This document shows positions 7,838 to 29,530 of a DNA stretch of 35,007 nt, piece by piece. The notes beneath the pieces were generated by a model that saw nothing but the letters and a program-made list of their open reading frames with translations, searched no databases and was not told the origin of the DNA. Origin of the DNA: an uncultured Burkholderiales bacterium. Lineage in GTDB: Bacteria; Pseudomonadota; Gammaproteobacteria; Burkholderiales; Burkholderiaceae_C. A program made the translations under genes and the position numbers. The stretch's first letter is position 1. Every line of letters starts with the position of its first letter. The stretch is from contig CAIVLE010000046.1 of the NCBI GenBank assembly GCA_903906635.1, forward strand, positions 1 through 35,007, given 5' to 3'.

Positions 7838-8202
7838 CGTTTGAACTGAGCCAGCGCTTTTACTTTGAAGCCGCACACACCTTGCGCCGAAGCATTGACG
7901 CCCAAGGCAGCCTGCGTATCCACGGCCACACTTACCACGCAGAAGTCACCCTTTCGGGCGAGCCTGACCCAGCCACGGGCATGATGATAGATCTGGCCTA
8001 CTTACGCCAAGAGGTCGAGAAAGTGCGAACCCAACTCGACCACCACTTCTTGGACGAAGTCGAGGGGTTGGGACCCGCCACCTTGGAGAACCTGTGTTTG
8101 TTTTTACACACGCACCTTAAAGCGGCGTTGCCCACTTTGGTTCGCGTGGTGGTCGAACGCCCGGCCAGCGGAGACAAGTGCTGCCTTCGACTTGACGCCT
8201 GA
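7834..8202 (+). CDS. queD: 6-carboxy-tetrahydropterin synthase-like protein QueD
   Basis: Expected to convert dihydroneopterin triphosphate to 6-carboxytetrahydropterin, upstream of QueE. The 122-residue protein keeps the zinc ligands His15 (FEAAH), His30 and His32 (HGH), the LDHHFL motif (Asp69, His70) and Glu108 (VVVERP). The catalytic cysteine of E. coli QueD, which lies four residues before HGH, aligns here with Ser26 in GSLRIHGH. The neighbouring QueE and the ATGA overlap argue strongly for a queuosine role. The missing cysteine suggests a variant subfamily, possibly with a different catalytic residue. Two cysteines near the C terminus (116, 117) are the only others apart from Cys88. Confidence 0.85.
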   Translation: MTFELSQRFYFEAAHTLRRSIDAQGSLRIHGHTYHAEVTLSGEPDPATGMMIDLAYLRQEVEKVRTQLDHHFLDEVEGLGPATLENLCLFLHTHLKAALPTLVRVVVERPASGDKCCLRLDA

Positions 8203-8246
8203 AGCCAGCGCGCTGAGTGCTCTGCGTGTGGGGAATTGAGAGCGCA

Positions 8247-9227
8247 TCAAGGTGCCGCAAAGTTGATCTTGGTCGCCAAGCGTTTGTTGGCCTCGATCTC
8301 ATCGGCAATCACCTTGGCAAACTCAGTAGGCGTGGAGCCCAGCGTCACATAGCCTTGCTCGGCAAATGAGCGTTTGACCTCTGGGTCATCCAGGGCTTTG
8401 AGCACTTCTTGGCGCATGCGCACCACGTACTCGCTGGGCGTGCCTGCGGGGTACCACAAGCCATACCAAGGCGTGTAAAAAAACCCTTTCACACCCGCCT
8501 CATCCACCGTGGGCACATCGGGCATCATGGCCCAACGTGTTTTGCCGGTGATGGCCAAAGCACGCAACTTGCCCGACTTGACCAAGGGCAACAAAGCCGT
8601 GGCCGAGCCGATGCACACATCGATACGCCCGGCCATCAAATCGGTGATCGCCTCGCCCACGCCTTTGTAGGGTACGTGGTTGATCTTGGTGCCTGCACTG
8701 GTGTTGAAAAACTCAGCCGCGAACTGCATGACATTGCCCACACCGCCCGAGCCGTAGTTGAGCTTTTCTGGGCGCGCTTTGGCGTCGGCAATGAACTCCT
8801 GCAAAGTGCTGGCCTTGACACTGGGCCCCACCGCCACCACAAAACCCACGCTATGGGCCACCAAAGTGATGGGCGTGAAGTCTTTCACCGGGTCATAACT
8901 CAGGCCGGGCGAGACCACGGGCAAGCTGGCATGGCTTGAAGAGGTGTTGAGCACCGTGTAACCATCGGGGGGCGACTTGGCGACCATCGCGGTGCCAATG
9001 GCACCCCCGGCCCCCGCACGGTTGTCGATGACGAAGTTTTGCCCCAGAGACGGGGCCATTTTTTGGTTCAGTGCACGACCGATGAAATCCATGGGTCCGC
9101 CCGCTACATAAGGCACCACCATGCGAATGGGGTGGTTGGGGTAGTCCTTGTGCGCGGTTTGACTTTGTGCTTGAACCCAAGAGGTGCAACACAACACGCC
9201 GCACAGTAGCCAAGGAATCATCTTCAT
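8247..9227 (-). CDS. Bug-family tripartite tricarboxylate-type substrate-binding protein (1)
   Basis: A 326-residue periplasmic receptor of the Bug/TctC family. It has a signal peptide (about 1-21, SWVQAQ), then the family motif YPNHPIRMVVPYVAGGPMD, the SPPDGYT motif and the VPYKGVGEAITDLMAGRID block that shapes the carboxylate-binding cleft. Ligands of these proteins are usually small organic acids or aromatic carboxylates, but the specificity cannot be read from sequence. The start at 9227 is chosen for the signal peptide; the frame stays open to 9419 inside the MFS gene. It is the last gene of a five-gene minus-strand operon. No TctAB membrane genes are in the window. Confidence 0.93.
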   Translation of the reverse strand: MKMIPWLLCGVLCCTSWVQAQSQTAHKDYPNHPIRMVVPYVAGGPMDFIGRALNQKMAPSLGQNFVIDNRAGAGGAIGTAMVAKSPPDGYTVLNTSSSHASLPVVSPGLSYDPVKDFTPITLVAHSVGFVVAVGPSVKASTLQEFIADAKARPEKLNYGSGGVGNVMQFAAEFFNTSAGTKINHVPYKGVGEAITDLMAGRIDVCIGSATALLPLVKSGKLRALAITGKTRWAMMPDVPTVDEAGVKGFFYTPWYGLWYPAGTPSEYVVRMRQEVLKALDDPEVKRSFAEQGYVTLGSTPTEFAKVIADEIEANKRLATKINFAAP

Positions 9228-9246
9228 GAGACATCTTTCAAAAAAT

Positions 9247-10461
9247 TCATTGCATGCGATCACGGTTTGCCAGCTGGGGAAACAAGCGCAACCAAAGAAC
9301 CGCCACCACGATGGTGCCCAAGCCGCCCAGTACCACCGACTCCACAGGACCCAACCAAGCCGCCGTGGCGCCCGACTCAAACTCGCCAAGTTGGTTAGAC
9401 GCCCCAATGAAAATACCATTCACTGCAGCCACGCGGCCCCGCATGTCCTCGGGGGTTTCCATTTGCATCAACGTCAAGCGTGTCACCACACTGATGTTGT
9501 CTGCCGCCCCCGTCACGGCGAGCGCCAGCATCGACAGCCAAAAGGACTCTGACACACCAAAAGCCATGGTGGCTAAACCAAAGACCCCCACCGCCCACAG
9601 CAGTCGGTGCCCCACGTGGCGCTGCATGGGCCAGCGCGCCAAGATCAAGGACACCACCAGCGCGCCGATCGCAGGCGCGCCACGCAGCAGCCCCAAGCCC
9701 TCGGGTCCCACATGCAAAATGTCTCGCGCATAAATTGGCAACAACGCCGTGGCCCCGCCCAGCAGCACAGCAAACAAATCCAGCGCCATTGCGCCCAACA
9801 ACACTTGTCGTTCACACACGAACACCACCCCTGCCATCACGGTGCGCCAACTGGCGGCCGTTTGAGCGGCTTGGGTACGGGGCAACACCACCCACCAAGT
9901 CAAGACAAAGGCCAGCGTCAGCAACGCGGCACAACTCAGGTACACGGTGCTGGGGCCCAACACATACAGCAAGCCTCCCAAGGCAGGCCCGCCAATGACC
10001 GCCACTTGCACCCCACTGGAGCTCAAGGCAATGGCGGGCTGCAGCAAACCGTTGGGCACCAGCATGGGAGTGATGGCTTGCTGCGCAGGCATTTGAAAAG
10101 CGCGAGCCACACCCAGCACCACCGACAGCGCAAACATCAACTCTCGGGTGGCAAAGTCACCCTGAACACCTCCCACCAACAGCAGCGCCACCAGCGCATC
10201 GGCCAACATGCACACAGCAAACAAGCGACCGCGGTGTACCCGATCGGCCACGTGTCCCGCAGGCAAGGTCATCAACAAAGCGGGGATGAACTGAAACAAA
10301 CCCACCAGCCCCAAGTCCCACGCGCTGGAGGTCATGTCGTACACATGCCATGCCAGCGCCACCATGAGCATTTGATTGGCCAAGATGCCCACTAAACGGG
10401 CAAACCAAAAACGAAGGAACTGAGGCTGCTTGAGCAGAGCGGAAAACGAATTGGAGTTCAT
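9247..10461 (-). CDS. MFS transporter, EntS-like exporter family
   Basis: A 404-residue inner-membrane transporter of the major facilitator superfamily with about 12 hydrophobic segments. The loop 2-3 signature AGHVADRVHRGRLF is typical. The segment SRxxAVNGIFIGASNQLGEFESG, preceded by PEDMRGRV, resembles the MFS_3 group of enterobactin exporter-like proteins, which usually export small molecules. It lies between azlD (16 bp upstream) and the Bug receptor gene (19 bp downstream) on the same strand, so all are probably co-transcribed. The substrate is unknown; it may be related to what AzlCD and the two Bug receptors handle. Confidence 0.87.
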   Translation of the reverse strand: MNSNSFSALLKQPQFLRFWFARLVGILANQMLMVALAWHVYDMTSSAWDLGLVGLFQFIPALLMTLPAGHVADRVHRGRLFAVCMLADALVALLLVGGVQGDFATRELMFALSVVLGVARAFQMPAQQAITPMLVPNGLLQPAIALSSSGVQVAVIGGPALGGLLYVLGPSTVYLSCAALLTLAFVLTWWVVLPRTQAAQTAASWRTVMAGVVFVCERQVLLGAMALDLFAVLLGGATALLPIYARDILHVGPEGLGLLRGAPAIGALVVSLILARWPMQRHVGHRLLWAVGVFGLATMAFGVSESFWLSMLALAVTGAADNISVVTRLTLMQMETPEDMRGRVAAVNGIFIGASNQLGEFESGATAAWLGPVESVVLGGLGTIVVAVLWLRLFPQLANRDRMQ

Positions 10462-10819: not shown

Positions 10820-11589
10820 GCGCGCACCTCTTGGGGTGGTGGGCGCAGAAAGCGTCGATCGACCCAATACGCCAGCGTTCCGCCCACCAAGCCCGTGGTC
10901 AACAAACTGGTGTCACGGTCCCAAAGATAAAAAGCAGGCCCCAGCAAGCACCCCAGCACAATGGCCAAGCGGTTGGCCCAAGGCTTGACCTCGGTGAAGG
11001 TCAACAAAAAGAACAAAGGGTTCAAAAATACCAGCGCCAAGGTCACAGGGGGCGAGACCCAACCGGCCACTTGGTAGCCCAAAAACGTGCCGGGCACTGA
11101 CACCAACCAACACGGCACAGCCAAACCTAAAAAGTAGGCCAAGCGGTGCTTGGCAGGCATGGCCTGAAACTCGCGCATCGAGACGGCCCATGCGGTCATG
11201 GCCAGCACGTGCACGGCTGCGTAGAGGCTGCTGTTGCGGTCACGGCGGTGAAACTGCGGAAACAACGTCACGGTCATCGTGATAAAGCGCGACGAGGACA
11301 AAGTCACCGCCAACACCATGGCCAACAAGGAAGAGCCGGTGATGAGCATTTCAAACAACACCACTTGGCCGGGCAAGGCGAACATCAGCAAACTGCTGGC
11401 CGTCATCAGCCACACATCAAAGCCATTGCTGCGCCCCATGGCGCCAAAGCCCACCATGCCAGCAAACAGCACCACCATGGGCGCGCCCAAGGCGGCACGC
11501 ACACCGGCCACACCAGCGTCTCGTCGGCTGGCAAACCGAGAGGCTGTCGTGTGCATCTGCGACTCCATCTGCATCTCCCTGTGCGGCAT
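10816..11589 (-). CDS. azlC: AzlC-family branched-chain amino acid export permease
   Basis: A 257-residue inner-membrane protein of the AzlC family (LIV-E type exporters), which works with AzlD. Segments VVLFAGMVGFGAMGR and ALPGQVVLFEML match the conserved first half, and SSRFITMTVTLFP is the family hallmark. The first ATG at 11589 overlaps the upstream Bug stop in TGATG, indicating coupled translation; later ATG codons at 11574, 11568 and 11556 are possible and would shorten the hydrophilic N-terminal tail. Function as an exporter is known for B. subtilis and C. glutamicum relatives; the substrate here is unproven. Confidence 0.88.
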   Translation of the reverse strand: MPHREMQMESQMHTTASRFASRRDAGVAGVRAALGAPMVVLFAGMVGFGAMGRSNGFDVWLMTASSLLMFALPGQVVLFEMLITGSSLLAMVLAVTLSSSRFITMTVTLFPQFHRRDRNSSLYAAVHVLAMTAWAVSMREFQAMPAKHRLAYFLGLAVPCWLVSVPGTFLGYQVAGWVSPPVTLALVFLNPLFFLLTFTEVKPWANRLAIVLGCLLGPAFYLWDRDTSLLTTGLVGGTLAYWVDRRFLRPPPQEVRA

Positions 11590-12566
11590 CAGTCGGCTTG
11601 AACGCCGGCCTTGATCAACAAGGGATTGAGCGTTTCAATTTCGTGTTTCAAATGGGCCCGCAAATACTCTGGCCGCGCCTTGTCTGGCGTCACTGGCAAG
11701 GCTCCCAGAGACCCCAAACGCTGTTTCACATCCGGGTCTTTGATGGCCGCTTGCAGCGCCCCTGTGAGCTTGTCAATCACCGCCTTGGGCGTGCCCTTGG
11801 GCGCATACAAACCAAACATGATGCTGATGTCAAACCCCGATGTCCCCAACTCGGGCAAGGCCGGCAACTCAGGCAACGAGGCCAAACGGGTTTTACCTGC
11901 TACCAGATAAGCTTTGACGCGGCCACTGGTGGTGGCAGGCGTGGTGCTCGTGGTTTGGTCACACATCATGTCGAGCTGTCCTCCCATCACATCGTTGAGT
12001 GCAGGAGCCGCGCCCTTGTAGGGCACGGAAGTCAGTTGTACATTGAGCGCGTTCATGAACATCAAGCTGCACAGATGCGAGGCCGATCCCACGCCGGCAT
12101 GCCCCATACTCAACTTGGCGGCGTTCTCGCGCACATAGGTCACGAACTCTTTGGCATCTTTGGCCGCAAAGTCACGCCTGGCCACCACCACCATGGGGCC
12201 TTCGGTCGCCAGTCCGATCGGCTCGAAGTCGTCCACCGGGCTGTAAGAGAGGTTTTTGAACATGGCCAAATTGGTGGCGTGGCTCACATGGATCATCAAC
12301 AGCGTGTAGCCATCGGGCTTGCTGCGTGCTACCTTGGCTGTGCCAATCGTGCCCGAGGCGCCGGAGGTGTTGTCCACCACGATTTGCTGCCCCAAAGCCT
12401 TTTGCATCGCTGCGGCATAAATGCGGGTGATCACGTCGCCTGGGCCACCTGCCGCATAGGGCATGACCATCGTGATGGGGCGTGATGGGTATTCTTGGGC
12501 CCAAAGCGGTGCACTCAGCGCCAGGCCTAGCCAAAGAAACCGCTTCAAAATGCAAGATCGTGTCAT
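11589..12566 (-). CDS. Bug-family tripartite tricarboxylate-type substrate-binding protein (2)
   Basis: A 325-residue periplasmic receptor with signal peptide (about 1-23, cleavage after LWAQ), the N-terminal motif YPSRPITMVMPYAAGGPGD, SKPDGYT and the VPYKGAAPALNDVMGGQLDMM block. It is the first gene of the operon Bug-azlC-azlD-MFS-Bug. It differs clearly from the first Bug protein of the same operon, so the two probably bind different ligands or one is a regulator-type receptor. The start at 12566 is set by the signal peptide; the frame extends to 12959 without one. The 144-bp region upstream, shared with a divergent small gene, has no promoter I would call with confidence. Confidence 0.92.
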   Translation of the reverse strand: MTRSCILKRFLWLGLALSAPLWAQEYPSRPITMVMPYAAGGPGDVITRIYAAAMQKALGQQIVVDNTSGASGTIGTAKVARSKPDGYTLLMIHVSHATNLAMFKNLSYSPVDDFEPIGLATEGPMVVVARRDFAAKDAKEFVTYVRENAAKLSMGHAGVGSASHLCSLMFMNALNVQLTSVPYKGAAPALNDVMGGQLDMMCDQTTSTTPATTSGRVKAYLVAGKTRLASLPELPALPELGTSGFDISIMFGLYAPKGTPKAVIDKLTGALQAAIKDPDVKQRLGSLGALPVTPDKARPEYLRAHLKHEIETLNPLLIKAGVQAD

Positions 12567-12710
12567 GACGTGCAGCGTATCACGCCGTCTGAAATTCAAC
12601 CCAAAGCGCAGTGAGTACCCGAGTTGTTTGAAGGACCTGGACCAGAGCCACCCACTCAAGTTAGGCCGTGTCGTGCCGATCACCCAAGCATACGAAGAAA
12701 GGAACGGGCC

Positions 12711-12959: not shown

Positions 12960-13307
12960 TCAGGCACTGAGCACCGTGAGGACCTGGCGCAACTGCCCCA
13001 TTTGCCCCGCGTCGTCGATCCATCGCAGCCACAACTCGCCCGAGCGCGTGGCACGCAGATAAAACTCAAACAAAGGGTTGGCCGATATGCCAGAGGACGG
13101 CTCGACCCGAAACACCTCTTGCGCGGGTGCGCCCTCGCCCACCCAGTGGCAGCTCAAGGTCTGGACCACATTGCGCGGCACGTTACGCCCCTCGTTGTCT
13201 TGCAAGTAGCCCGTCTCCATGGGGTGTTGCACCAAGACACGAACCTTGAACACATCCCCCGCGACCACCCGCTCGGGCCAGGACATGCGAGCCAAATTCA
13301 TCGCCAT
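12960..13307 (-). CDS. SoxZ-like sulfur carrier subunit
   Basis: A 115-residue protein resembling SoxZ, the partner of the SoxY thiosulfate-oxidation carrier. The pattern of RVLVQHPMETGY followed by NPLFEFYLRATRSGELWLRWIDDAG fits the SoxZ immunoglobulin-like fold, in which the HxMETG motif is conserved. It has no signal peptide, as for SoxZ, which is exported with SoxY. It begins 4 bp after the soxY-like stop. No SoxAX, SoxB or SoxCD gene is near, so a classic thiosulfate oxidation role is unlikely; the association here is with a molybdenum hydroxylase. Confidence 0.8.
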   Translation of the reverse strand: MAMNLARMSWPERVVAGDVFKVRVLVQHPMETGYLQDNEGRNVPRNVVQTLSCHWVGEGAPAQEVFRVEPSSGISANPLFEFYLRATRSGELWLRWIDDAGQMGQLRQVLTVLSA

Positions 13308-13311
13308 GGCG

Positions 13312-13791
13312 TCACGACCCGTCCACGCAGGCAGACTCGGTGACGATCACGTCTGCCAAGTCATAAAAACAACGCCCATCGGCCATACGCGCCAAGGCCA
13401 ACACCATTTGAGAGCCCGCCAGGCGCACGCGCGTGCTGATCTCGGCGCGTCCTGACCAAGGCCCCAGATGGAACGTGGCCATGCGCTCGACCGGGTTGCG
13501 TTGGGACACCAAGACGATTTCTTGCACATGCTCTGAAGGGGTCATCGGGCTATCCACCCGCACGCTCAGGGGCACCAAATGGCCGTTATCGGCCAGCAAA
13601 GGCAGTTGCAAATGCACCGCTTGGCGCAGCGGGGCGGCCCCTTGAGCCCAAGGCGCCAGCATTTCAGACAAGGAACGCAATCGCCCAGAGACCATGCCCT
13701 GGGCCCAGGCGCTGGAGCGCTGGCCTGACAGAGCCAGCGCGCCACAACCCAGCGCCGCACTGGCGTGCAGCCACTGCCTGCGCTGCATCAT
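13312..13791 (-). CDS. SoxY-like carrier with shortened cysteine arm (AACIE-arm type)
   Basis: A 159-residue periplasmic protein similar to SoxY. An N-terminal twin-arginine signal (RRQWLHASAALG, 4-15) is followed by the SoxY domain, with blocks VPLSVRVDSPMTPSEHVQ and FHLGPWSGRAEISTRVRLAGSQ. True SoxY proteins end in GGCGG, carrying the substrate-binding cysteine on a swinging arm. Here the chain ends VTESACVDGS, with Cys155 four residues from the end. This resembles SoxY-related proteins with an AACIE arm. Its ATG at 13791 overlaps the iorB stop by 4 bp. A carrier role for some thiol-linked or electron-linked intermediate is inference only. Confidence 0.8.
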   Translation of the reverse strand: MMQRRQWLHASAALGCGALALSGQRSSAWAQGMVSGRLRSLSEMLAPWAQGAAPLRQAVHLQLPLLADNGHLVPLSVRVDSPMTPSEHVQEIVLVSQRNPVERMATFHLGPWSGRAEISTRVRLAGSQMVLALARMADGRCFYDLADVIVTESACVDGS

Positions 13792-15950
13792 CCGCGGGCC
13801 AAGCTCAAGCCGTGGTTTTTGAGTGGCAATGAGCGCAAGCGCTTGCCGGTGGCCGCAAAGATGGCGTTGGCCAAAGCCGGCGCCAGCGGCGCTTGGGCAG
13901 GTTCGCCCACGCCACCCCAAAAGCCACCCGTGGGAGCGATCACGGCCTGCACCTTGGGCATCTCGTTGAAGCGCATCATGCGGTAGTCATGGAAGTTCGA
14001 TTGCTCAATGCGGCCGTCCTTGAGCGTCATCTCGCCCCAGAAAATTGCGCTCAAGCCGTGCACCACGCTGCCTTGAATTTGCGCCTCGATGTTATTGGGA
14101 TTGACCGCGTAGCCCGGGTCAATGCCCATCACCACACGGTGGATCTTGACCTCTGACTTGGCGTTGACAGACACCTCGCACACACACGCGGTGTAGCTGC
14201 CATAGCCCTCGGTTTCTGCAATACCGCGGAACACGCCCTTGGGTAAAGGCTTGCCCCAGTCGGCGGCCTTGGCCACAGCGTCCAAAATCGCTCGGTCTTT
14301 GACGAACTTTTCTCCCAACAGCGACTGGCGAAACGCCAAGGGGTCTTTGCCCGCGGCGTGGGCCAGCTCGTCGATGAACGACTCGCGTACAAACGGGTTT
14401 TGTGAGTGCCCCACAGTACGCCAAAAGCCTACCGGCACATTGGTGTTGCGCTGCGCGTAATCGACCAAACTGTTGGGGATGTTGTAGGGGTGGTCGTTGA
14501 AACTTGCCACGGCTTGGCCATCGATGCCGTTGGGCAAGGGCAACTTGAGCAAGGTGGCCAAAATCGACGGTGCACTCACTCGGATGTGAAGGGCTTGCAC
14601 CTTGCCTGCATCATCCATCGAAGCCTTCATGCGCACCAAGCTGGCGGGTCGGTACAAGTCGTGCTGGGTGTCTTCCTCGCGGGTCCACACCATTTTGACG
14701 GGCTTGCCCTCCATGGCCTTGGCAATCAGCACGCCTTGGCGCGTGAAGTCTTGAGCGCCCTTGCGGCCCAAGCCACCCCCGAGTTGCATGGGGTGCACCA
14801 ACACTTGGTCTTGCGGCACGCCTGCCGCGGCCGCCGCCGTCGCCAACACCCCTTCTGGGTTTTGCGTGGAGGTCCACACTTCGGCCTTGCCGTCGTGCAC
14901 CCATGCAGTACACACCAAGGGCTCCATGGTGGCGTGGGCCAAATAAGGAGTGAAGTACTCGGCCTCGTGCACCTTGGTGGCTTTGGACAAGACTTCTGGG
15001 GCATTGCCGTCGTTGCGGGCCACAGCCAGTTGAGGTTGGTCTAGACCTTCCTTGAAGCTGGCCATGATGGAGGCGCTTGAGAGCTTGGCGTTGTCGCCGC
15101 TGTCCCATTCGATGGCGACATCTTTCAAAGCTTCCTTGGCACGCCACCAGTTGTCAGCCACCACAGCCACAAACGTGCCCTGGTTGAGCACCTTGACAAT
15201 GCCACGGCGGTTGTCCACTTTGGAGGAGTCCAGCGACTTGACCGTGCCATTGAAGACCGGACAAGCCGCCACTGCGGCGTACAACATGCCGGGCAATTGG
15301 GCGTCGATGCCGTAGCGCACGCGCCCCGTCACGATGTCGGGAATGTCCACCCGCTTGATGGGCTTGCCAATGATCTTCCAGTCTTTGGGGTCTTTGAGCT
15401 TGACCTCTTTGGGGGGCTCCAACTTGGCGGCTTCAGCGGCCAACTTGCCGTAGCTGAGCTTGCGCTTGCTTGGGGTGTGGGTGACCACGCCCAAAGCCGC
15501 CACGCATTCGCTGGCGGGCACGCCCCACTGCTGGGCAGCGGCGGCAATCAGCATTTCACGGGCGGAGGCACCCGCCTTGCGCAGATATTCTTGCGAGTTG
15601 CGAATGGTGCGACTGCCCACAGCGGCCATGTCACCGTAGACACGTTTTTGACGCAAGTTCTCGTGCGCGGTGGCGTACTCCACGCGCACCTGTTTCCAGT
15701 CAGCTTCGAGCTCGTCGGCCACCAACTGAGGGGCCGAGGTGCGGCTGCCCTGGCCCATTTCGGTGCGAGCGTAGCGAATGATGATGGTCTCGTCAGCTTG
15801 AATCTCGATCCAGGCATTGACGCGCTCAGCCGTGGCGGCCATGCCTTTTTCAGGCAAGAAAAAGCCCAGCGACAAGGCCGCAGCAGCGGTGCTAGAGACC
15901 TTCAAGAAGCTGCGACGGTCCACGCCATCGTTGAGGTGTGAGGTGGTCAT
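13788..15950 (-). CDS. Molybdopterin-binding subunit of aldehyde/isoquinoline oxidoreductase
   Basis: A 720-residue periplasmic molybdenum enzyme of the xanthine oxidase family, closest in layout to isoquinoline 1-oxidoreductase beta subunit (IorB). It has a Tat signal ([10 protein letters not shown], 11-20), TEMGQGSRT (63-71), HATMEP (339-344), the cofactor loop GGGLGRKG (391-398) and the catalytic Glu683 in GVGEP. It works with the adjacent iron-sulfur subunit, whose stop overlaps this start. No FAD subunit is encoded, which is normal for IorAB-type enzymes that pass electrons to cytochromes or azurin. The substrate (an N-heterocycle or aldehyde) cannot be told. The 3' end overlaps the soxY-like gene. 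Confidence 0.9.
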
Positions 15951-16408
15951 GCGTGTGCTCCTTTGTTGGCCACCGCGTGGATGGCTTGGCGCATGCGCGC
16001 ATAGGTCCCACAGCGGCAGATGTTGCTCATGGCGGCATCGATGTCTTCGTCCGTGGGCTTGGGTTTTTTCTTGAGCAAGGCCACAGCCGTCAAGATTTGG
16101 CCGCCTTGGCAGTAACCGCACTGGGGCACCTCATGGTCAATCCAAGCTTGTTGCACCGCATGCAGGGTGCCGTTTTTATTGGCCAATCCCTCGATGGTGA
16201 CCACCTTTTGTGATGCAGCGGCAGACACGGGGTAAGAGCATGAGCGCACGGGCTCGCCGTTCAAGAGCACCGTGCACGCGCCGCACTGGGCCACGCCACA
16301 ACCGAATTTGGGACCTTTGATGTCAAGCTCATCGCGCAAGGCCCACAAAAGAGGCATGTCGGGCTCGACGTCGGCCTCATGCACACGTCCGTTGATGTTG
16401 AGTTTCAT
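15947..16408 (-). CDS. [2Fe-2S] subunit of aldehyde/isoquinoline oxidoreductase
   Basis: A 153-residue two-cluster iron-sulfur protein that feeds electrons from the molybdenum subunit. The plant-type cluster ligands are C37, C42, C45 and C57. The second cluster is formed by C97, C100 (QCGYCQGG), C131 and C133 (CRCGTY). It has no signal of its own and is presumably exported with the Tat-bearing large subunit. Start at 16408 is chosen for the GAGGTGG ribosome-binding site and the usual N terminus; the frame extends 14 codons further. It is the first gene of the operon iorA-iorB-soxY-soxZ and diverges from the aromatic cluster. Confidence 0.93.
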
Positions 16409-16634: not shown

Positions 16635-16699
16635 AAACGCTGAACTTGAACGCCATCTTTGAACGCCATCTTTGAACGTCAACTTTGAAAGCCAACCTT
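16635..16699. repeat. 13-bp tandem repeat, 5 units, leader of the dioxygenase gene
   Basis: Five consecutive 13-bp units with consensus GAACGCCATCTTT lie at 16635-16647, 16648-16660, 16661-16673, 16674-16686 and 16687-16699. Units two and three are identical and the outer ones are diverged. The array ends inside the TTG start codon (16698-16700) of the dioxygenase-like gene, so the ribosome-binding region is itself made of repeat DNA and copy-number changes would alter the leader length. Confidence 0.8.
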
Positions 16700-17531
16700 G
16701 AGCCTTGATGCCCACTTGGTGCGCTTGCACCTGCAATCCCCCGACCCGGCGGCCTTGGCCGCTTTCTACGCGCGCTGCTACGGCATGCAACAGCGCGTGA
16801 TCGGCCAGACCCACCTGTGCGAGGGGCCGCTCAGAGCCGTGCACATGTCACCCGGTCAAGCCAACCAGCTGCACTACGCGCTGTGGGCCTGCAATTCACA
16901 GGCAGCTTGGGAGCGCTTGTGTGCCAAAACAGCCACGCTGCCGCACGTCGATTTAAGTGGGTTTTCAGACCTGCCCCAAGGCGCCTTGGGTCTGCGAGAC
17001 CCGCAAGGCTTGTGCCTGGTGTTTGTGCCGCCTCAAGCTCCCCCCGCACCCACGCAGCTCGCCAGCCCCCTGCCTGGGGCCACCAACCAACACTTTGCTA
17101 TTCGAACCCAGCAGATCGAGACCTTGCTGAGCTTTTACACCGAACAATTGGGCTTTACTTTGTCCGACCGGGTGCAAGACGACAGCGGCAAACTCACCGC
17201 CTGCTTTTTGCGCACCGAGCACCTGCACCATTGCATCGCCTTGTTTGGCGCGCCCGTGAACTGCTTTGACCACCAGTCGTTTGAAACCCCGAACTGGGCC
17301 GACCTCAAAGACTGGGCCGACCACATGGGTCGCCTGCGAACCGAAATCGTCTGGGGTGTGGGGCGCCACGGGCCCGGGGACGATGTGTTTTTCATGGTTC
17401 GGGACCCCGATGGCAATTTGGCTGAAATATCGGCAGAAATAGAAACCTGCGCGAGCGACAGACCGGTGGGTATCTGGCCACATGAAGAGCGCACCCTCAA
17501 TGTGTGGGGCAAAGCCATCATGCGCAGTTGA
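16698..17531 (+). CDS. Extradiol ring-cleavage dioxygenase-like VOC protein
   Basis: A 277-residue protein with two VOC domains (about 5-115 and 127-250), the architecture of type I extradiol dioxygenases that open catechol rings. The metal triad is present in the second domain: His132 (NQHFAI), His178 (HLHHCIALFG) and Glu243 (DPDGNLAEIS). The start is a TTG at 16698, since an in-frame stop lies just upstream and the first VOC strand begins at residue 7; TTG 16716 and GTG 16719 are alternatives. It is the first gene of a cluster with a hydroxylase and a decarboxylase-like protein, which fits cleavage of a catechol made by those enzymes. The exact substrate is unknown. Confidence 0.78.
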   Translation: MSLDAHLVRLHLQSPDPAALAAFYARCYGMQQRVIGQTHLCEGPLRAVHMSPGQANQLHYALWACNSQAAWERLCAKTATLPHVDLSGFSDLPQGALGLRDPQGLCLVFVPPQAPPAPTQLASPLPGATNQHFAIRTQQIETLLSFYTEQLGFTLSDRVQDDSGKLTACFLRTEHLHHCIALFGAPVNCFDHQSFETPNWADLKDWADHMGRLRTEIVWGVGRHGPGDDVFFMVRDPDGNLAEISAEIETCASDRPVGIWPHEERTLNVWGKAIMRS

Positions 17532-17540
17532 GTCCCTGGC

Positions 17541-18314
17541 ATGCCCAACACCCAGCGCATCTTGCGCGTGCTCAATGCCTTCACCGCCCAGCGTCCTGAG
17601 ATATCTCCCGAATGGTTGATGGCTGACTTGGGCGCCTCACGCGCCAGCATTTACCGTGACCTGCAGCAGCTCAGCCGCGTGGGCTTGATCGAACGTGTGA
17701 GCGAGCGGGGCTACTCGCTGGGTCCCAAAATCGTGGAGTTAGATCGGCAAATTCGCCACTCCGACCCGCTCTTGCGCTCAGCCGCAGAAATTCCAGCGCA
17801 CTTGGCACGCACCACGGGCGGGCGGGTGCTCATCTGCCGCTTGCATGACGACAAAGTGCTGTGCATCCAAGACACCCCCGGCCAGCACGCTCCTTGTGCC
17901 GTGAGTTACGAGCGCGGCAAAGCCATGCCCCTGTACAAAGGCGCCACCTCCAAAATCATCTTGGCACACCTGCCCAGCAAAAAAGTGGACGAGCTGTTTG
18001 CCAAAGAACAGGCGTTCATTCGCTGCGCCGGGTTGGCACAGACCTTGGAGGAACTTCACTTGGTGCTCAAGCAGTGGCGCAGCGAAGGCAGCGTCACCAC
18101 CGAGGCAGATCTTGACCCACACACCGTGGGCTGTGCGGTCGCTTTGATGCAGGGCAAGCGAGTGCTGGGCAGCTTGAGCGTGGTCTTGCCGGCCCAAGCT
18201 GTTAACCCCGAAAAACACGCGCGCGACCTGCGCGAGTTGCGCAGCGCAGCGCGGCGTATCGAAGCCCGATTGGCCTCAGAGCACAAAAAACCTCCCCCCA
18301 CAGCGACGAGTTAA
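17541..18314 (+). CDS. IclR-family transcriptional regulator
   Basis: A 257-residue DNA-binding regulator. A winged helix-turn-helix lies in about 1-65 (RILRVLNAF ... LGASRASIYRDLQQLSRVGLI ... GYSLGPKIVEL). The ligand-binding IclR domain follows (about 75-245), including the stretch ERGKAMPLYKGATSKIILAHLP. IclR proteins beside aromatic genes, such as MhpR and PcaR, often activate them in response to the substrate. It is inside the cluster it probably controls, 9 bp after the dioxygenase-like gene and 2 bp before the hydroxylase. The likely site is the palindrome at 16553-16569. Confidence 0.92.
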   Translation: MPNTQRILRVLNAFTAQRPEISPEWLMADLGASRASIYRDLQQLSRVGLIERVSERGYSLGPKIVELDRQIRHSDPLLRSAAEIPAHLARTTGGRVLICRLHDDKVLCIQDTPGQHAPCAVSYERGKAMPLYKGATSKIILAHLPSKKVDELFAKEQAFIRCAGLAQTLEELHLVLKQWRSEGSVTTEADLDPHTVGCAVALMQGKRVLGSLSVVLPAQAVNPEKHARDLRELRSAARRIEARLASEHKKPPPTATS

Positions 18315-18316
18315 GC

Positions 18317-19909
18317 ATGAACCCAATTTTGAATTTTGATGTGATTGTGGTGGGCACCGGCCCCAGCGGCTTGGTGCTCGCGCACTTGCTGGGCAACCAT
18401 GGCGTGAGCGCCTTGGTGATCGATAAAAACGCGGGCCCCGTAGACGAGGCACGTGCGGTCACCATTGACGACGAAAGCCTGCGCACCCTCCAAGCGACTG
18501 GCATGCTGCCCGAGGTGCTGACCCATGTGGTGCAAGGCTACGGCGTGCATTACTACTCGTGGACAAATCAGTTGTTTGCCAAGATCGAGCCGAGCTCGCA
18601 GGAATACGGCTACCCCAAACGCAACGCTTTTCGCCAACAACTCTTGGTGCAAACCTTGAGCCAAGGCTTGACCCGCCAAGCCTCGGTGAGTCTGCGCTAT
18701 GACCATGAACTCCTCAGCCTTGAACAACACGCAGACCATGTCAGCGCCACCGTGCAACACCAGGGCCAAACCCAGGCCTTCACCGCGCGCTGGCTGGTGG
18801 CGTGCGACGGCGGGCGCAGCACGGTGCGTGAGTTGCTAGGCATTGCCCTGGAGGGCAGCACCTACAAGGAAAAGTGGTTGATTGCAGACTTGATTGGTCG
18901 CGCCTCAGCGTTTCGCCACACCCGCACTTACTGCGACCCACAGCGTCCGGCCATTCGCCTGCCCGGTCCGCAAAGCACCGTGCGCTATGAGTTCATGCTG
19001 CACCCGGGTGAAGATCCTCAAGCCGTTTTGCAAGACGAACAGCTGCGCAGTTGGATTCGTGGCCGCGATCCGCAAGACGCACAGCTGCAACTGTTGCGCA
19101 AAGTGGTCTACACCTTCCATGCGCGCGTGGCCACGCGCTGGCGCGAGGGTCGAGTGCTGTTGGCAGGCGACGCGGCACACCTCACGCCACCCTTTGCAGG
19201 GCAAGGCATGAACAGCGGCGTGCGAGACGCTGCCAACTTGGCTTGGAAACTGGTGGCCAACTTGCAGCACGGCGCTTCGCCCCAACTGCTGCAGAGCTAC
19301 CAACAAGAACGCAAACCACACGCGTGGGCCTTGATTCAAATGGCCTTGCGCATTGGCGCTTTCATGCAACCCAAGTCACGCTGGGGCGCGGCCTTGGCCC
19401 AAACCTTGTTGAAAGTGGTGTGCCTGGTGCCCGCGGCACGCGACTACATCTTGCACCTCAAGTTCAAACCCAAGCCCCGTTTCCACGAAGGATTTTTTGT
19501 TCCCTGGAACATCCCCCACGCCAAAATCCCAAGTGGCCAGCTCATGACCCAACCCTTGGTTGAGTTGCCCCATGGCAAGACCTCTCTGCTTGACGATTTG
19601 CTGGGACAAGGCTTTGCTGTGCTGCAGTGGGCCGACTCTGCGGACTTGGTGTTGCCAAAGAACATGCATGCGCGCGTGGTGCGTGTGGTACGGCATGAGG
19701 ATGATTTTTTGCCTGCCACCACCGCCGCGCATGCGCTGTGCGTGCGTGACTTGCAGCGCGAACTCGCCGCAGTGCTCGACAGCGCCCAAGCACAGGCCGT
19801 GGTGCTCAGGCCCGACCGTTACGTCATGGCTTATGTGGGACAGGATGCTGCACAAGCCTGTGGCACCATCGCGGAAATTTTTCACACGGTCTACCCTTCG
19901 CAGGTTTGA
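18317..19909 (+). CDS. FAD-dependent aromatic hydroxylase, MhpA-like
   Basis: A 530-residue group A flavoprotein monooxygenase. The ADP-binding motif GTGPSG (13-18), the CDGGRSTVR motif (163-171) and the second FAD motif GDAAHLTPPFAGQGMNSG (284-301) are all present. Overall layout is that of 3-(3-hydroxyphenyl)propionate hydroxylase MhpA, including a C-terminal thioredoxin-like region (about 410-530) without a CxxC pair. It would hydroxylate a phenolic substrate ortho to an existing hydroxyl, giving the catechol for the dioxygenase. The true substrate may differ from MhpA. It starts 2 bp after the regulator gene; the next gene begins 5 bp after its stop. Confidence 0.88.
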   Translation: MNPILNFDVIVVGTGPSGLVLAHLLGNHGVSALVIDKNAGPVDEARAVTIDDESLRTLQATGMLPEVLTHVVQGYGVHYYSWTNQLFAKIEPSSQEYGYPKRNAFRQQLLVQTLSQGLTRQASVSLRYDHELLSLEQHADHVSATVQHQGQTQAFTARWLVACDGGRSTVRELLGIALEGSTYKEKWLIADLIGRASAFRHTRTYCDPQRPAIRLPGPQSTVRYEFMLHPGEDPQAVLQDEQLRSWIRGRDPQDAQLQLLRKVVYTFHARVATRWREGRVLLAGDAAHLTPPFAGQGMNSGVRDAANLAWKLVANLQHGASPQLLQSYQQERKPHAWALIQMALRIGAFMQPKSRWGAALAQTLLKVVCLVPAARDYILHLKFKPKPRFHEGFFVPWNIPHAKIPSGQLMTQPLVELPHGKTSLLDDLLGQGFAVLQWADSADLVLPKNMHARVVRVVRHEDDFLPATTAAHALCVRDLQRELAAVLDSAQAQAVVLRPDRYVMAYVGQDAAQACGTIAEIFHTVYPSQV

Positions 19910-19914
19910 ACACC

Positions 19915-20895
19915 ATGTCTTCACGCACTTTTTTTTGCAAGTTCATCTGCACGGCTTTGTGGCTCCTGTGCACCACATCTATGACCTGGGCACAAGCGCC
20001 CTACCCCAACCGCGCCATCAAACTGGTCTCCCCCATACCGCCCGGTGGCGCCCCCGATTTGATTGCACGCGCCATTGGCTACAAGCTCTCGACAGGACTC
20101 AACCAGGCGGTGGTGATTGAAACCAAGGTGGGCTCTAACGGCAACATCGCTGCGGAATTTGTGGCACGTGCACCGGCCGATGGCTACACCTTGCTGGTGG
20201 GCATGGACAGTTTGTTTGTCATCAACCCCTATCTCTACCCCAAGGGTGCAGTGGATGTGAACAAAGAACTCATCCCCATTGCCTCGCTGGGCAGCAACCA
20301 GTTTGTCTTGTCGGTCAATGCGGCCTTGCCAGTGAAGACGTTGCCTGAATTTGTGGCCTATGTGAAAAAAGCCACGCCCCCGCCCGCATACGCCTCGGGG
20401 GGCAACGGCAGCCAGCACCACCTCACCATGGAAATGCTCAAAGCCCGTGCGGGCATGGACTTGCTGCATGTGCCCTATAAAGGTGGCGCGCCGGCCACCA
20501 CGGCCACCATTGGTGGTGAAACCGTTGCCATGTTCTCGGGCACCTCCAACGCGGCACTCATCAAAGCGGGCAAACTCAAAGCCATTGCGGTCAGCAGCTC
20601 GCAACGTCTCAAAGAAATGCCCGAAGTGCCCACCATTGCCGAGACCTACCCGGGCTTTGACAACAGCATCTGGATTGGCCTGTTCGCGCCGGCGGGTACA
20701 CCCGACGCCGTGGTGCAGCGCTTGCGCGCGGAAGTGGCCAAAGCCTTGCATGCGAGCGACTTGGTGGAAGCCTTTGACAAAGCTGGGGGCATCGAGCCTA
20801 TGCTGACCACCCCAGAAGAGCTGCAAGCGAGAATCAAGCGCGATCAAATCAAATACAGCAAGATCATTCGCGACCTTGGCATCAAACCCGACTGA
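19915..20895 (+). CDS. Bug-family tripartite tricarboxylate-type substrate-binding protein (3)
   Basis: A 326-residue periplasmic receptor with a signal peptide (about 1-27, SMTWAQ), the N-terminal motif YPNRAIKLVSPIPPGGAPD, ARAPADGYT, and the VPYKGGAPATTATIGGETVAMF block. The location between the hydroxylase and the decarboxylase-like gene suggests it binds the aromatic acid that the cluster degrades. The ATG at 19915 is preferred over a TTG at 19906 that overlaps the hydroxylase stop. No matching membrane components are nearby, as is common for this family. Confidence 0.93.
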   Translation: MSSRTFFCKFICTALWLLCTTSMTWAQAPYPNRAIKLVSPIPPGGAPDLIARAIGYKLSTGLNQAVVIETKVGSNGNIAAEFVARAPADGYTLLVGMDSLFVINPYLYPKGAVDVNKELIPIASLGSNQFVLSVNAALPVKTLPEFVAYVKKATPPPAYASGGNGSQHHLTMEMLKARAGMDLLHVPYKGGAPATTATIGGETVAMFSGTSNAALIKAGKLKAIAVSSSQRLKEMPEVPTIAETYPGFDNSIWIGLFAPAGTPDAVVQRLRAEVAKALHASDLVEAFDKAGGIEPMLTTPEELQARIKRDQIKYSKIIRDLGIKPD

Positions 20896-20964
20896 GTGCA
20901 GCGCCAGCCCCAAGCCTCATCCCCATTTACCCTTTGATCCATTCACTTTTTCACGGAGTCTCAT

Positions 20965-21954
20965 TTGTCCAACCTCAATCTCTCCATTGCCGTCGGTGAC
21001 TACGACCATGTGCGCGACCTCATGTCTGGACGCGTACGCGCCGAAGGCATCGACATCACCCCCATCCATGTGCCGGTTGAAGAAATGTTTTTTCGCTTCA
21101 CCAAATTCCAAGAGTGGGACGTGTCGGAGATGTCATTTGCCAAAGCCATCTCGCTGGTGTCCCACAGCGACCCCTGGCTGGTCTTGGTGCCTGTGTTTCC
21201 TTCACGGGCATTTCGACACTCGTCCATCTATGTTCGCAAAGACCGCCACATCCAAGCCCCGGGCGATCTGGCGGGCAAGAAGGTGGGGGTGCCCGAATGG
21301 GCACAAACCGCAGCGATTTACTCGCGCGGTATGCTGGCCCATGAGTACGGTGTGGACCTCAACAGCATCGACTGGTACCAAGCGGGGGTGAACGATGCCG
21401 GGCGGCGTGAAAAAGTGGCCTTGCAACTGCCACAAGGTCTGCGCTACACCCCCATGCCCCACACCTCGCTGTCTGAGATGCTGCTCAACGGCACGCTGGA
21501 CGCAGTCCTGAGCGCGCGCCCACCCAGCGCATTTGTCGAGCACCCCGAGTTGGTGGAGCGCCTGATCCCCAACTACCGCGACGTCGAGATGGCGTATTGG
21601 CAAAAAACACAGATCTTTCCGATCATGCACGTGATGGCCATCAAGCGCGAGGTGTACGAGAAGAACCGCTGGATCGCCACCAACTTGCTCAAAGGGTTTG
21701 AGCAAGCCAAAACCCGAAGCCTGCACCGTGCCGCTGACATCACCGCTTCTTCCTACCCGCTGCCCTGGGTGGCCGACTACGCGGCCCAATCGCAAGCCAT
21801 CATGGGCGACGATTTCTGGCCATATGGCATCGAGGGCAATCGCTCGACACTGGAGGCCTTCAGCCAGTATGCTTGGGAGCAAGGTATCACCACCCGCCAC
21901 CTCAAACTCGAAGAAATATTCGTCAAAGAGGTCCAAGACAGCGTGAAGGTCTGA
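20965..21954 (+). CDS. 4,5-dihydroxyphthalate decarboxylase-like protein
   Basis: A 329-residue protein with the type 2 periplasmic-binding fold and no signal peptide. It resembles 4,5-dihydroxyphthalate decarboxylase (Pht5) in the N-terminal pattern LSIAVGDYDHVRDL followed by VPVEEMFFRF and WDVSEMSFAKAISL. Pht5-type enzymes remove a carboxyl group from a dihydroxylated aromatic acid to give protocatechuate; many homologues are annotated only as ABC substrate-binding proteins. The start is TTG at 20965, supported by GGAG 6 nt upstream and by the family N terminus. It follows the Bug gene after 69 bp and precedes the YhhQ-like gene by 2 bp. The decarboxylase call is a family inference. Confidence 0.72.
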   Translation: MSNLNLSIAVGDYDHVRDLMSGRVRAEGIDITPIHVPVEEMFFRFTKFQEWDVSEMSFAKAISLVSHSDPWLVLVPVFPSRAFRHSSIYVRKDRHIQAPGDLAGKKVGVPEWAQTAAIYSRGMLAHEYGVDLNSIDWYQAGVNDAGRREKVALQLPQGLRYTPMPHTSLSEMLLNGTLDAVLSARPPSAFVEHPELVERLIPNYRDVEMAYWQKTQIFPIMHVMAIKREVYEKNRWIATNLLKGFEQAKTRSLHRAADITASSYPLPWVADYAAQSQAIMGDDFWPYGIEGNRSTLEAFSQYAWEQGITTRHLKLEEIFVKEVQDSVKV

Positions 21955-28787: not shown

Positions 28788-29530
28788 TCAAATCACATGT
28801 CCCGCGTTGACGATGTTTTGATCAATGAGCAGCTGTGCATACACCCCGGCTGTGTTGTAGTTGTAGGCCACCAAGGTGTGGCCGGCGTAGGTGATGGCGG
28901 TATTCGTAACCGATTTCGTCCAATCCGCCAAGCTGATATTGACGACATCCGTGGCGTCCCCCCACACCATCAACTGGTGCTGGGCCACGCTCGCCCCCAA
29001 GGCCGAAGCACTGGAGCTGCCTGTGTTAGCGCTGTTGAAGACGTTCATGCCCGTCATGTCCAACACATCACCCAGGCCTAACTTGAGTTGATTTCCAAGT
29101 CCGCCACTCATGCTGGCGTCGAGGGACAAATCCACGACTTCGATCGAGCTCAAACGCGAGGCCCCACCACCCACATTGCGAATAGCTGTCAAATCCACCA
29201 AGCCACTCAGGGTAGAGGCTGCGCCACTGGCCAGTTGCACCACGTCTATGCCTGTACCGCCATCGATGCGCGCCAACTGGGTGGTGTTGCCACCCGCGCC
29301 AAACGTGCTTTGCAAGGCATTCACCATGGCGGCGCTCACCACAAAAGTGTCGTTGCCCGCTCCGCCGTACAACACATCGGCCCCAGTGGTGGCGCTGGAG
29401 ATCAAGGTGTCATCTCCCGAACTGCCCACCAGAGTTTGGTTGCCGCTGGAGGTCAAGGTGTGGTGACTCGATGTCGCAACTTGGTCCACCGCCGTTTGAG
29501 AAAAAGCTCCCGAGGTGCTGCCAAAAATCA
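28788..29530 (-). repeat. C-terminal copy of a duplicated RTX-like module
   Basis: This module is repeated at about 32000-32755 with an offset of 3231 bp (1077 codons). DNA is identical over at least 68 bp (29365-29432), and protein similarity continues through GADVLYGGAGNDT, the GGTGID segment, VLDMTGMNVFNS and HQLMVWGDATD to the terminal QLLIDQNIVNA. Confidence 0.85.

Follow-up and report, generated by a model that had tools for sequence, protein, structure and literature searches.

We describe a gene group in which a molybdenum hydroxylase of the IorAB type is linked to a carrier pair of the SoxYZ type. It was met in a 35,007-nucleotide stretch of DNA (the window) from an uncultured Burkholderiales bacterium (GCA_903906635.1, contig CAIVLE010000046.1, positions 1 to 35,007), where SoxY has its arm cysteine in an xACxx tail (xAC arm) and not in the GGCGG tail of canonical SoxY. 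Judged by gene content in the genomes compared, iorAB and soxYZ with an xAC arm are conserved together, soxX and soxA are usually in the same gene group, and soxB and soxCD, whose products act on the GGCGG arm, are absent next to the xAC-arm module. Moreover, the IorB sequences linked to Sox genes form a clade of their own. The gene linkage is demonstrated here, and from it we infer what chemistry and what kind of substrate the module may have: the chances seem evenly balanced that the IorAB-type hydroxylase acts on its substrate while this is bound to the arm cysteine of a dedicated periplasmic SoxYZ.

The arm of SoxY and its partner enzyme

Because choosing loci by their closeness to the window was to be avoided, 398 genomes of the phylum were searched with the NCBIfam model TIGR04487. 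This gave 35 places at an E-value of 1e-30 or better, of which one is the window itself and the other 34 were fetched with 7 kb on each side, or less at contig ends. All 19 loci with an xAC arm have both IorA and IorB within 7 kb, and within the same flanks SoxB was found in 0/19 and SoxC in 0/19. The 15 loci with a GGCG arm have no IorB, and SoxB is present in 13 of them. We also hand-picked 20 canonical control loci from the family, four of them (L283-L286) from genomes picked for missing SoxB. IorB is found in none of these controls and SoxB in 16, the four without SoxB being L283-L286; the tail of L283, as read, is not GGCGG. Furthermore, we took 20 family loci whose arms and neighbours had not been seen beforehand. 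Four of these have an xAC arm, three together with IorAB and one cut by a contig end, and the 16 loci with other arms have no IorB. Pooled, IorB is present in 22 of 22 xAC loci with intact flanks and in 0 of 51 loci with other arms (Fisher p 4e-19, which overstates the association because the loci are related by descent). Neither the phylum sample nor the further family sample holds an exception to this split where the flank is intact.

A reading of the window from its sequence alone (the sequence-only reading) had linked the carrier pair to the molybdenum enzyme, and the survey bears this out, as IorB follows the arm type and the pairing is found in many Proteobacteria. IorAB and SoxXYZA might instead serve different reactions under the same conditions and merely share electron carriers. 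Operons can join unrelated functions, as is argued for other SoxYZ variants in the portion of that work available (PMC11237559). Here, however, the arm sequence itself tracks the enzyme, and the pairing is kept in Proteobacteria of many kinds and survives both the loss of soxXA and a rearranged convergent layout (see below), so that we regard co-regulation alone as doubtful.

The arm cysteine is kept in 84 of 84 SoxY sequences compared, a set which was partly chosen by arm. AACIE is the arm in 41 of them, AACVE in 22 and other variants in 21; these counts are biased because the patterns used to scan the contigs of relatives included the arm, and the phylum and further family samples test the link more fairly. 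The arms of L246-L249 have no acidic residue at the second position after the cysteine (Cys+2). In the SoxY tree the xAC arms (56 sequences) and the other SoxY (41 sequences) split at one branch (100/100); its groups were labelled according to the arm, and the alignment still included the arm columns.

Besides these, there is a further class of SoxY proteins ending in SGCGM (L029, L031, L033, L313, L314 and L315). In L313-L315 SoxZ lies beside SoxY, a flavocytochrome c relative and a small cytochrome lie a few kb off, and no SoxX, SoxA, SoxB or IorB was found at the loci. The genomes of the controls L283-L286 (G006, G011, G066 and G069) have a SoxY above the canonical cut-off and no SoxB above its cut-off. 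SoxZ was found in L284 and L286 and a flavocytochrome pair in L286, with no other of the searched Sox genes at the four loci.

Conservation in relatives and the IorB clade

The window SoxY was searched in 150 genomes of the family, of which 67 matched, and the 30 best loci were taken. Of the 24 loci closest to the window (L005-L028), all but one have an xAC arm, and in 22 of these 23 an IorB relative lies within the fetched 1.5 kb. The alignment (A1) contains the window protein and 22 of these 24 loci, L019 and L022 being left out. In loci whose sequence from iorB to soxY was read, soxX, a small cytochrome, lies between the two genes, and soxA follows soxZ.

The scan of relatives' contigs covers the best 80 matches (the best 80 named loci). 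Here 77 loci have SoxX, 76 have IorB, 76 have SoxA and 70 have IorA, with a weak and distant IorA match in two of the 70; in the four loci without IorB the contig begins just upstream. SoxB is matched once, with 22% identity and on the opposite strand, and SoxC in none of the 80. A flavoprotein lies near 27 of these loci, and the copy that was tested (L114) is a relative of flavocytochrome c sulfide dehydrogenase (Pfam: PF21706, PF09242). The commonest layout in the relatives is iorAB-soxXYZA, in some with flavocytochrome c sulfide dehydrogenase. A crude clustering of the neighbouring open reading frames gave this flavoprotein (27/80) as the only recurrent neighbour beyond the core, the other groups being found at 13 loci or fewer each or being shadow frames of the core. 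Homologues of the window's neighbours are TctC in 12 of the 80 loci, the VOC protein and the flavin adenine dinucleotide (FAD) monooxygenase in one each, and IclR and AzlC in none. Neither the recurrent neighbours of these 80 loci nor the window's own neighbours give a clue to the substrate.

The module loci include the genera Bradyrhizobium, Polaromonas (sp. JS666, L111), Ramlibacter, Massilia, Rubrivivax, Methylobacterium and Steroidobacter, and the full gene group is found in annotated plasmids of Methylobacterium and Roseomonas. On a Neorhizobium plasmid the large subunit is present in the DNA and missing from the gene table. IorAB is missing from a Sinorhizobium plasmid (L117) that encodes SoxZ, a cytochrome and the flavoprotein, and the arm cannot be typed there because the SoxY frame is broken. 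The titles of the metagenome-assembled genomes of L038, L040, L059 and L068 (e.g. Klebsiella, Chitinophaga) clash with sequences that look Burkholderiales-like in the trees, and the species names in these titles seem to be poorly assigned.

The layout iorAB-soxYZ without nearby soxXA was found in the window, L053, L068 and L084, and all four genomes have SoxA elsewhere. Since this layout recurs in L053, L068 and L084, which form a small branch of their own apart from the window in the IorB tree, iorAB plus soxYZ seems to be the minimal unit. That the pairing is a chance feature of the window can be ruled out, as it recurs across the family, named and phylum loci. The genome survey of IorAB together with xACxx SoxY that the sequence-only reading had called for thus found the pairing widely conserved and not restricted to one lineage.

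For the IorB tree, made by a quick search, we used 75 of 115 sequences, namely 56 Sox-linked IorB and 19 other IorB hand-picked from the IorB matches in the family genomes. The 56 Sox-linked sequences are on one side of a branch and the 19 others on the other side, with a support of 100 in the Shimodaira-Hasegawa-like approximate likelihood ratio test (SH-aLRT). Within the Sox-linked group the window IorB branches first, as sister to all 55 others, followed by copies of the type found on contig C57 of the same genome. By its place in the tree and its gene content, the operon of the window is a reduced version of a widespread module that branches deeply, an early or divergent form of it. Distances between IorB sequences correlate with those between SoxY sequences (r 0.82, n 91), and those of SoxA and SoxY likewise (0.84). 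Trp678 and Trp191 mark the Sox-linked clade: both are in all 96 Sox-linked sequences, including the window, and missing from the 19 others. Asn502 is another residue that marks the clade. Trp678 is close in sequence to Glu683, which is shared between both groups (invariant in at least 97% of the 96 Sox-linked and at least 90% of the 19 other IorB).

Within roughly 3 kb on each side, Sox genes were found beside 0 of the 19 other IorB. This bears on maturation of the enzyme, the second role that had been suggested from the window's sequence; SoxYZ would here either give sulfur to the molybdenum centre of IorAB or guard it. In favour of this, a sulfido ligand on molybdenum is essential in the IorAB family, and the loci show a tight linkage of carrier and enzyme. 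However, all 19 chosen enzymes of the same family lack Sox genes nearby, the cofactor is inserted in the cytoplasm before export while SoxYZ should be periplasmic, and SoxXA, which belongs to the conserved operon and has its active-site cysteine intact, would be left without a role. The maturation idea therefore finds no support, and we consider it very unlikely.

The operon in the window and the rest of the genome

All four genes of the window's operon are on the minus strand. The iorA-like gene (15947-16408) encodes a small subunit of 153 amino acids with two [2Fe-2S] domains (Pfam: PF01799, 101.6 bits with a cut-off of 30.3; PF00111, 29.1 bits with a cut-off of 21). The iorB-like gene (13788-15950) encodes a molybdopterin-binding large subunit of 720 amino acids (Pfam: PF02738, 132.5 bits, and PF20256, 112.8 bits, both with a cut-off of 27). 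They are followed by the soxY-like carrier gene (13312-13791, 159 amino acids; Pfam: PF13501, 93.6 bits, cut-off 28.4) and its soxZ-like partner (12960-13307, 115 amino acids; Pfam: PF08770, 71.5 bits, cut-off 25; TIGR04490, 71.1 bits, cut-off 76). Re-reading the coordinates and junctions confirmed the tight packing described earlier: iorA and iorB, and again iorB and soxY, have 4 bp (ATGA) in common, and the ATG of soxZ comes 4 bp after the stop of soxY, so that the four genes form one compact unit from 16408 to 12960. Neither SoxB nor SoxCD is encoded in it. With all four frames intact and the arm cysteine kept in relatives, a dead gene copy is ruled out.

By its MoCoBD domains, its subunit with two [2Fe-2S] domains and Glu683, IorAB is a xanthine oxidase family enzyme. 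Glu683 lies in the motif GVGE (codon 13902-13904, minus strand), which we take to be the position of the catalytic glutamate of that family. The nearest solved chain by sequence is 8gy3_C, the large subunit of an aldehyde dehydrogenase (E 2.1e-68), and no NCBIfam equivalog model was matched by IorAB at or above its cut-off. IorB starts with VDRRSFLK and matches the signal model TIGR01409 of the twin-arginine translocation (Tat) pathway with 17.9 bits (cut-off 16.7). The textbook Tat motif is SRRxFLK; the N-terminus of SoxY has an RR pair and differs from this motif, and no Tat model matched SoxY in the profile search. Of the two twin-arginine signals that had been noted before, the one of IorB thus stands, while that of SoxY is reduced to an RR start. 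IorA and SoxZ have no signal sequence by eye (inspection only, no predictor run).

As the sequence-only reading had stated, SoxY has no GGCGG tail; it ends in the arm SACVDGS (13315-13335, minus strand), in which Cys155 (codon 13327-13329) is the arm cysteine. Compared with AACIE-type arms, SACVD keeps the alanine, the cysteine and the acidic residue at Cys+2. TIGR04487 is the top-scoring NCBIfam family for this SoxY, yet with 128.8 bits it stays below the cut-off of 172, which the SoxY of the relative L114 exceeds (212.4 bits). The score against the true-SoxY model TIGR04488 is also below its cut-off (87.9 versus 125 bits). Against the fused-carrier model TIGR04557 the window proteins score 60.2 and 37.8 bits (cut-off 140), and their genes are separate. 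The predicted structure of SoxY has a mean predicted local distance difference test score (pLDDT) of 81.6, and its best matches in the PDB are the SoxY chains of the Paracoccus SoxYZ complex (2oxh/2oxg, E 5.5e-11). As the model has no helix or strand beyond residue 151, Cys155 is probably on a free tail. With its SoxY and SoxZ domains and the C-terminal arm cysteine, the pair is a SoxYZ carrier as far as the sequences tell.

That no other sox gene is present, as had been stated earlier, is true for the window but not for the genome, which has two further soxYZ pairs. Contig C150 has a canonical cluster with a GGCGG-type SoxY, SoxZ, SoxA and SoxB. On contig C57 the genes soxX, soxY (arm TACFDET), soxZ and soxA face a second iorAB in convergent orientation, and the IorB encoded there is 49% identical to that of the window. 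This convergent type of module is also found in G130 and in the family loci L308 and L309. The second iorA of C57 (G000, locus L120) is adjoined by a gene (7842-10052) which we take to encode a SulP-like transporter with a cyclic-nucleotide-binding-like end, a possible clue to the substrate.

Directly downstream of soxZ in the window there is a binding protein of the TctC/Bug type (11589-12644; Pfam: PF03401, 206.8 bits). Two more binding proteins of this tripartite-transporter type are presumably encoded at 8247-9419 and 19906-20895, named by resemblance. On the plus strand, pointing away from iorA, lies a block (16698-21954) which to us resembles aromatic catabolism, with what we assume to be a VOC-type protein, an IclR-type regulator, an FAD monooxygenase, a binding protein and a 4,5-dihydroxyphthalate decarboxylase-like protein. 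An open frame of 2072 amino acids with FG-GAP repeats and cadherin-like and RTX-type domains (28788-35006) reaches near the end of the window.

A possible reaction on the arm cysteine

In the classical model SoxAX joins thiosulfate to SoxYZ, SoxB removes the sulfonate and SoxCD, a relative of sulfite oxidase, oxidises the sulfane, and according to the accessible part of the source none of these steps has been directly demonstrated (PMC5336275). For the xAC-arm module, we propose that IorB would carry IorA, and SoxY would carry SoxZ, through the Tat pathway. SoxXA would oxidatively join a thiol or another reduced sulfur compound to the arm cysteine of SoxY, and the arm would enter IorAB, where the tethered group would be hydroxylated or dehydrogenated, most likely at a carbon near the sulfur. 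This step would take the place of SoxCD and SoxB in the classical cycle. The two [2Fe-2S] clusters would hand the electrons on to a c-type cytochrome, which may be SoxX or the small one belonging to the flavocytochrome pair, and released inorganic sulfur could feed the canonical Sox pathway. In the organism of the window the loading step would depend on a borrowed SoxXA, for which the second module on C57 is the likeliest source.

Enzymes of the xanthine oxidase type attack carbon. For this reason we read the load as a sulfur compound that is organic, or bears carbon at the least, in a mixed disulfide, and give about equal weight to such a load being oxidised in place by IorAB and to its not being so. 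There may then be a second Sox-type cycle in which the arm acts as an address label, GGCGG leading to SoxB and SoxCD and xACxx to a molybdenum hydroxylase that oxidises the tethered carbon-bearing sulfur compound; this we put forward tentatively, at somewhat less than an even chance. The proposed loading enzyme appears intact, since the heme-ligand cysteine and both CxxCH motifs are kept in 101 of 101 SoxA sequences (those of at least 200 amino acids, from 105 loci). The ligand cysteine of the SoxA family is thought to hold the sulfur compound before its transfer to SoxYZ, with evidence for TsdA and a proposal for SoxAX in the text available (PMC4423706).

Several points weigh against oxidation of an arm-bound substrate by IorAB. 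The enzymes known from the IorAB family hydroxylate heterocycles or aldehydes, and we know of none that acts on a protein-bound group. One family locus with an xAC arm (L027, genome G083) has no IorB beside SoxY, on a contig of only 4.3 kb, and no near IorB was found anywhere in this genome, which is 85% complete. The family locus L007 (genome G074), whose arm is of the AGC type (AGCVEG), has soxXYZA, but the 5 kb upstream contain no IorB; pieces of IorB are present on other contigs of G074. An internal stop or a split frame was found in the IorB of G014, G034 and G005 and in the SoxY of G066. The window IorB itself departs from the others at 12 of the 25 clade-marking positions (RTVGHSQN compared to RGVNxNxN), at two of them with the residue that is commonest in the unlinked enzymes, so that the window enzyme may use another substrate. 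The role of the SoxA heme cysteine is disputed, with a dissenting claim for SoxAX in the same partly available source (PMC4423706). Finally, 20 of 25 family genomes and 15 of 19 phylum genomes encode SoxB elsewhere, and among the family genomes canonical SoxY is commoner in those with the module (27 of 29) than in those without it (69 of 121). The 29 module genomes are those with the arm read among the matches to the window SoxY, some of which were left unread.

Because most module genomes hold SoxB and canonical SoxY, SoxB could act in trans, and a module that feeds the canonical Sox pathway fits these data as well. This leads to an alternative in which the load taken up by SoxXA and the xAC-arm SoxYZ is thiosulfate, sulfide or polysulfide, and canonical SoxB processes it in trans; IorAB would then stand in for SoxCD alone, or have no more in common with the other proteins than regulation and cytochromes. 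Such an accessory branch of inorganic sulfur oxidation agrees with the co-occurrence of SoxB and canonical SoxY, with the flavocytochrome c sulfide dehydrogenase relative near 27 of the best 80 named loci, and with SoxA keeping the active site of the thiosulfate family. It is harder to reconcile with the strict link of arm type and IorB in all 22 loci with intact flanks, and with xanthine-oxidase-type enzymes acting on carbon. Moreover, SoxB stays below its family cut-off in 9 of 44 module genomes. Five of these nine genomes (G119, G226, G369, G455 and G469), all listed as 100% complete, have the xAC SoxY and, apart from it, no SoxY that reaches the canonical cut-off, so that SoxB is not always needed. 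On balance we find the accessory branch unlikely, though worth keeping in view. The claim of the sequence-only reading that the module is a separate system holds in part: there is no SoxB or SoxCD nearby, but SoxX, SoxA and sometimes a SoxEF-like flavocytochrome are included, and nearly all module genomes have canonical SoxY too.

Comparison with known systems

Our literature search, with most subscription papers outside its scope, found no description that joins IorAB with SoxYZ or SoxXAYZ; one paper, by its title a study of Tat in Shewanella (PMC3623810), contains both gene names, soxY and iorB. We thus see Sox carrier chemistry with a different partner enzyme; NCBIfam already names the arm, and the pairing with IorAB is new to the literature searched. 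The association of a molybdenum enzyme with a small protein whose flexible cysteine arm appears to bear the substrate, in numerous bacteria of soil and fresh water and instead of the usual enzymes of sulfur oxidation, points to an uncharacterised oxidation of a sulfur-containing compound outside the inner membrane. If an arm-bound substrate is indeed oxidised by IorAB, the Sox carrier would be an interchangeable handle and not a part of a single pathway, with the arm telling which enzyme processes the load. A family of carriers for which no more than the arm motif is known would gain a function, and the isoquinoline label that such enzymes tend to get would have an alternative. It would furthermore mean a hidden step of sulfur turnover in Bradyrhizobium, Polaromonas, Ramlibacter, Massilia, Rubrivivax, Methylobacterium and Steroidobacter, and soxXAYZ genes alone would not be enough to infer thiosulfate oxidation. 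If the arm is an address label, this would mean a molybdenum hydroxylase of a substrate-tethering kind, and a route through the periplasm from organic sulfur compounds to the inorganic sulfur cycle.

TIGR04487, the family of SoxY-related proteins with an AACIE arm, is the closest named relative of the carrier; its NCBIfam entry names only the arm, with no function and no link to IorAB. With two-subunit enzymes of the IorAB type and the aldehyde dehydrogenase 8gy3 the module shares a molybdopterin subunit and a subunit with two [2Fe-2S] domains. The other IorB differ in having SoxYZ nearby in 0 of 19 cases and in lacking the clade markers such as Trp678.

In SAR324 bacteria flavocytochrome c likewise adjoins a SoxYZ of low identity and the sox set is incomplete, whereas isoquinoline 1-oxidoreductase is a separate gene for which the portion of the paper at hand states no link to SoxYZ (PMC4782131). 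There are also the quinoprotein dehydrogenase-associated carrier TIGR04557 and the fusions SoxYZ-S2/S4, in which a SoxYZ carrier is conserved beside a carbon-oxidising periplasmic dehydrogenase and has no agreed role, as far as the excerpted source goes (PMC11237559). These differ in being one fused protein with alcohol or formate dehydrogenases, as also described in the available text of PMC12997753, and with SoxH-type hydrolases as neighbours; the excerpt of PMC11237559 states no link of SoxYZ-S2/S4 to SoxXA or a molybdenum hydroxylase.

The canonical Sox system, finally, shares three features with the module: a carrier of the SoxYZ fold whose cysteine arm is C-terminal, a SoxXA in which the heme motifs are intact, and a partner that is a molybdenum enzyme. 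It is set apart by its GGCGG arm and by SoxB and SoxCD, in whose place the module has an xACxx arm and a molybdenum hydroxylase next to the carrier.

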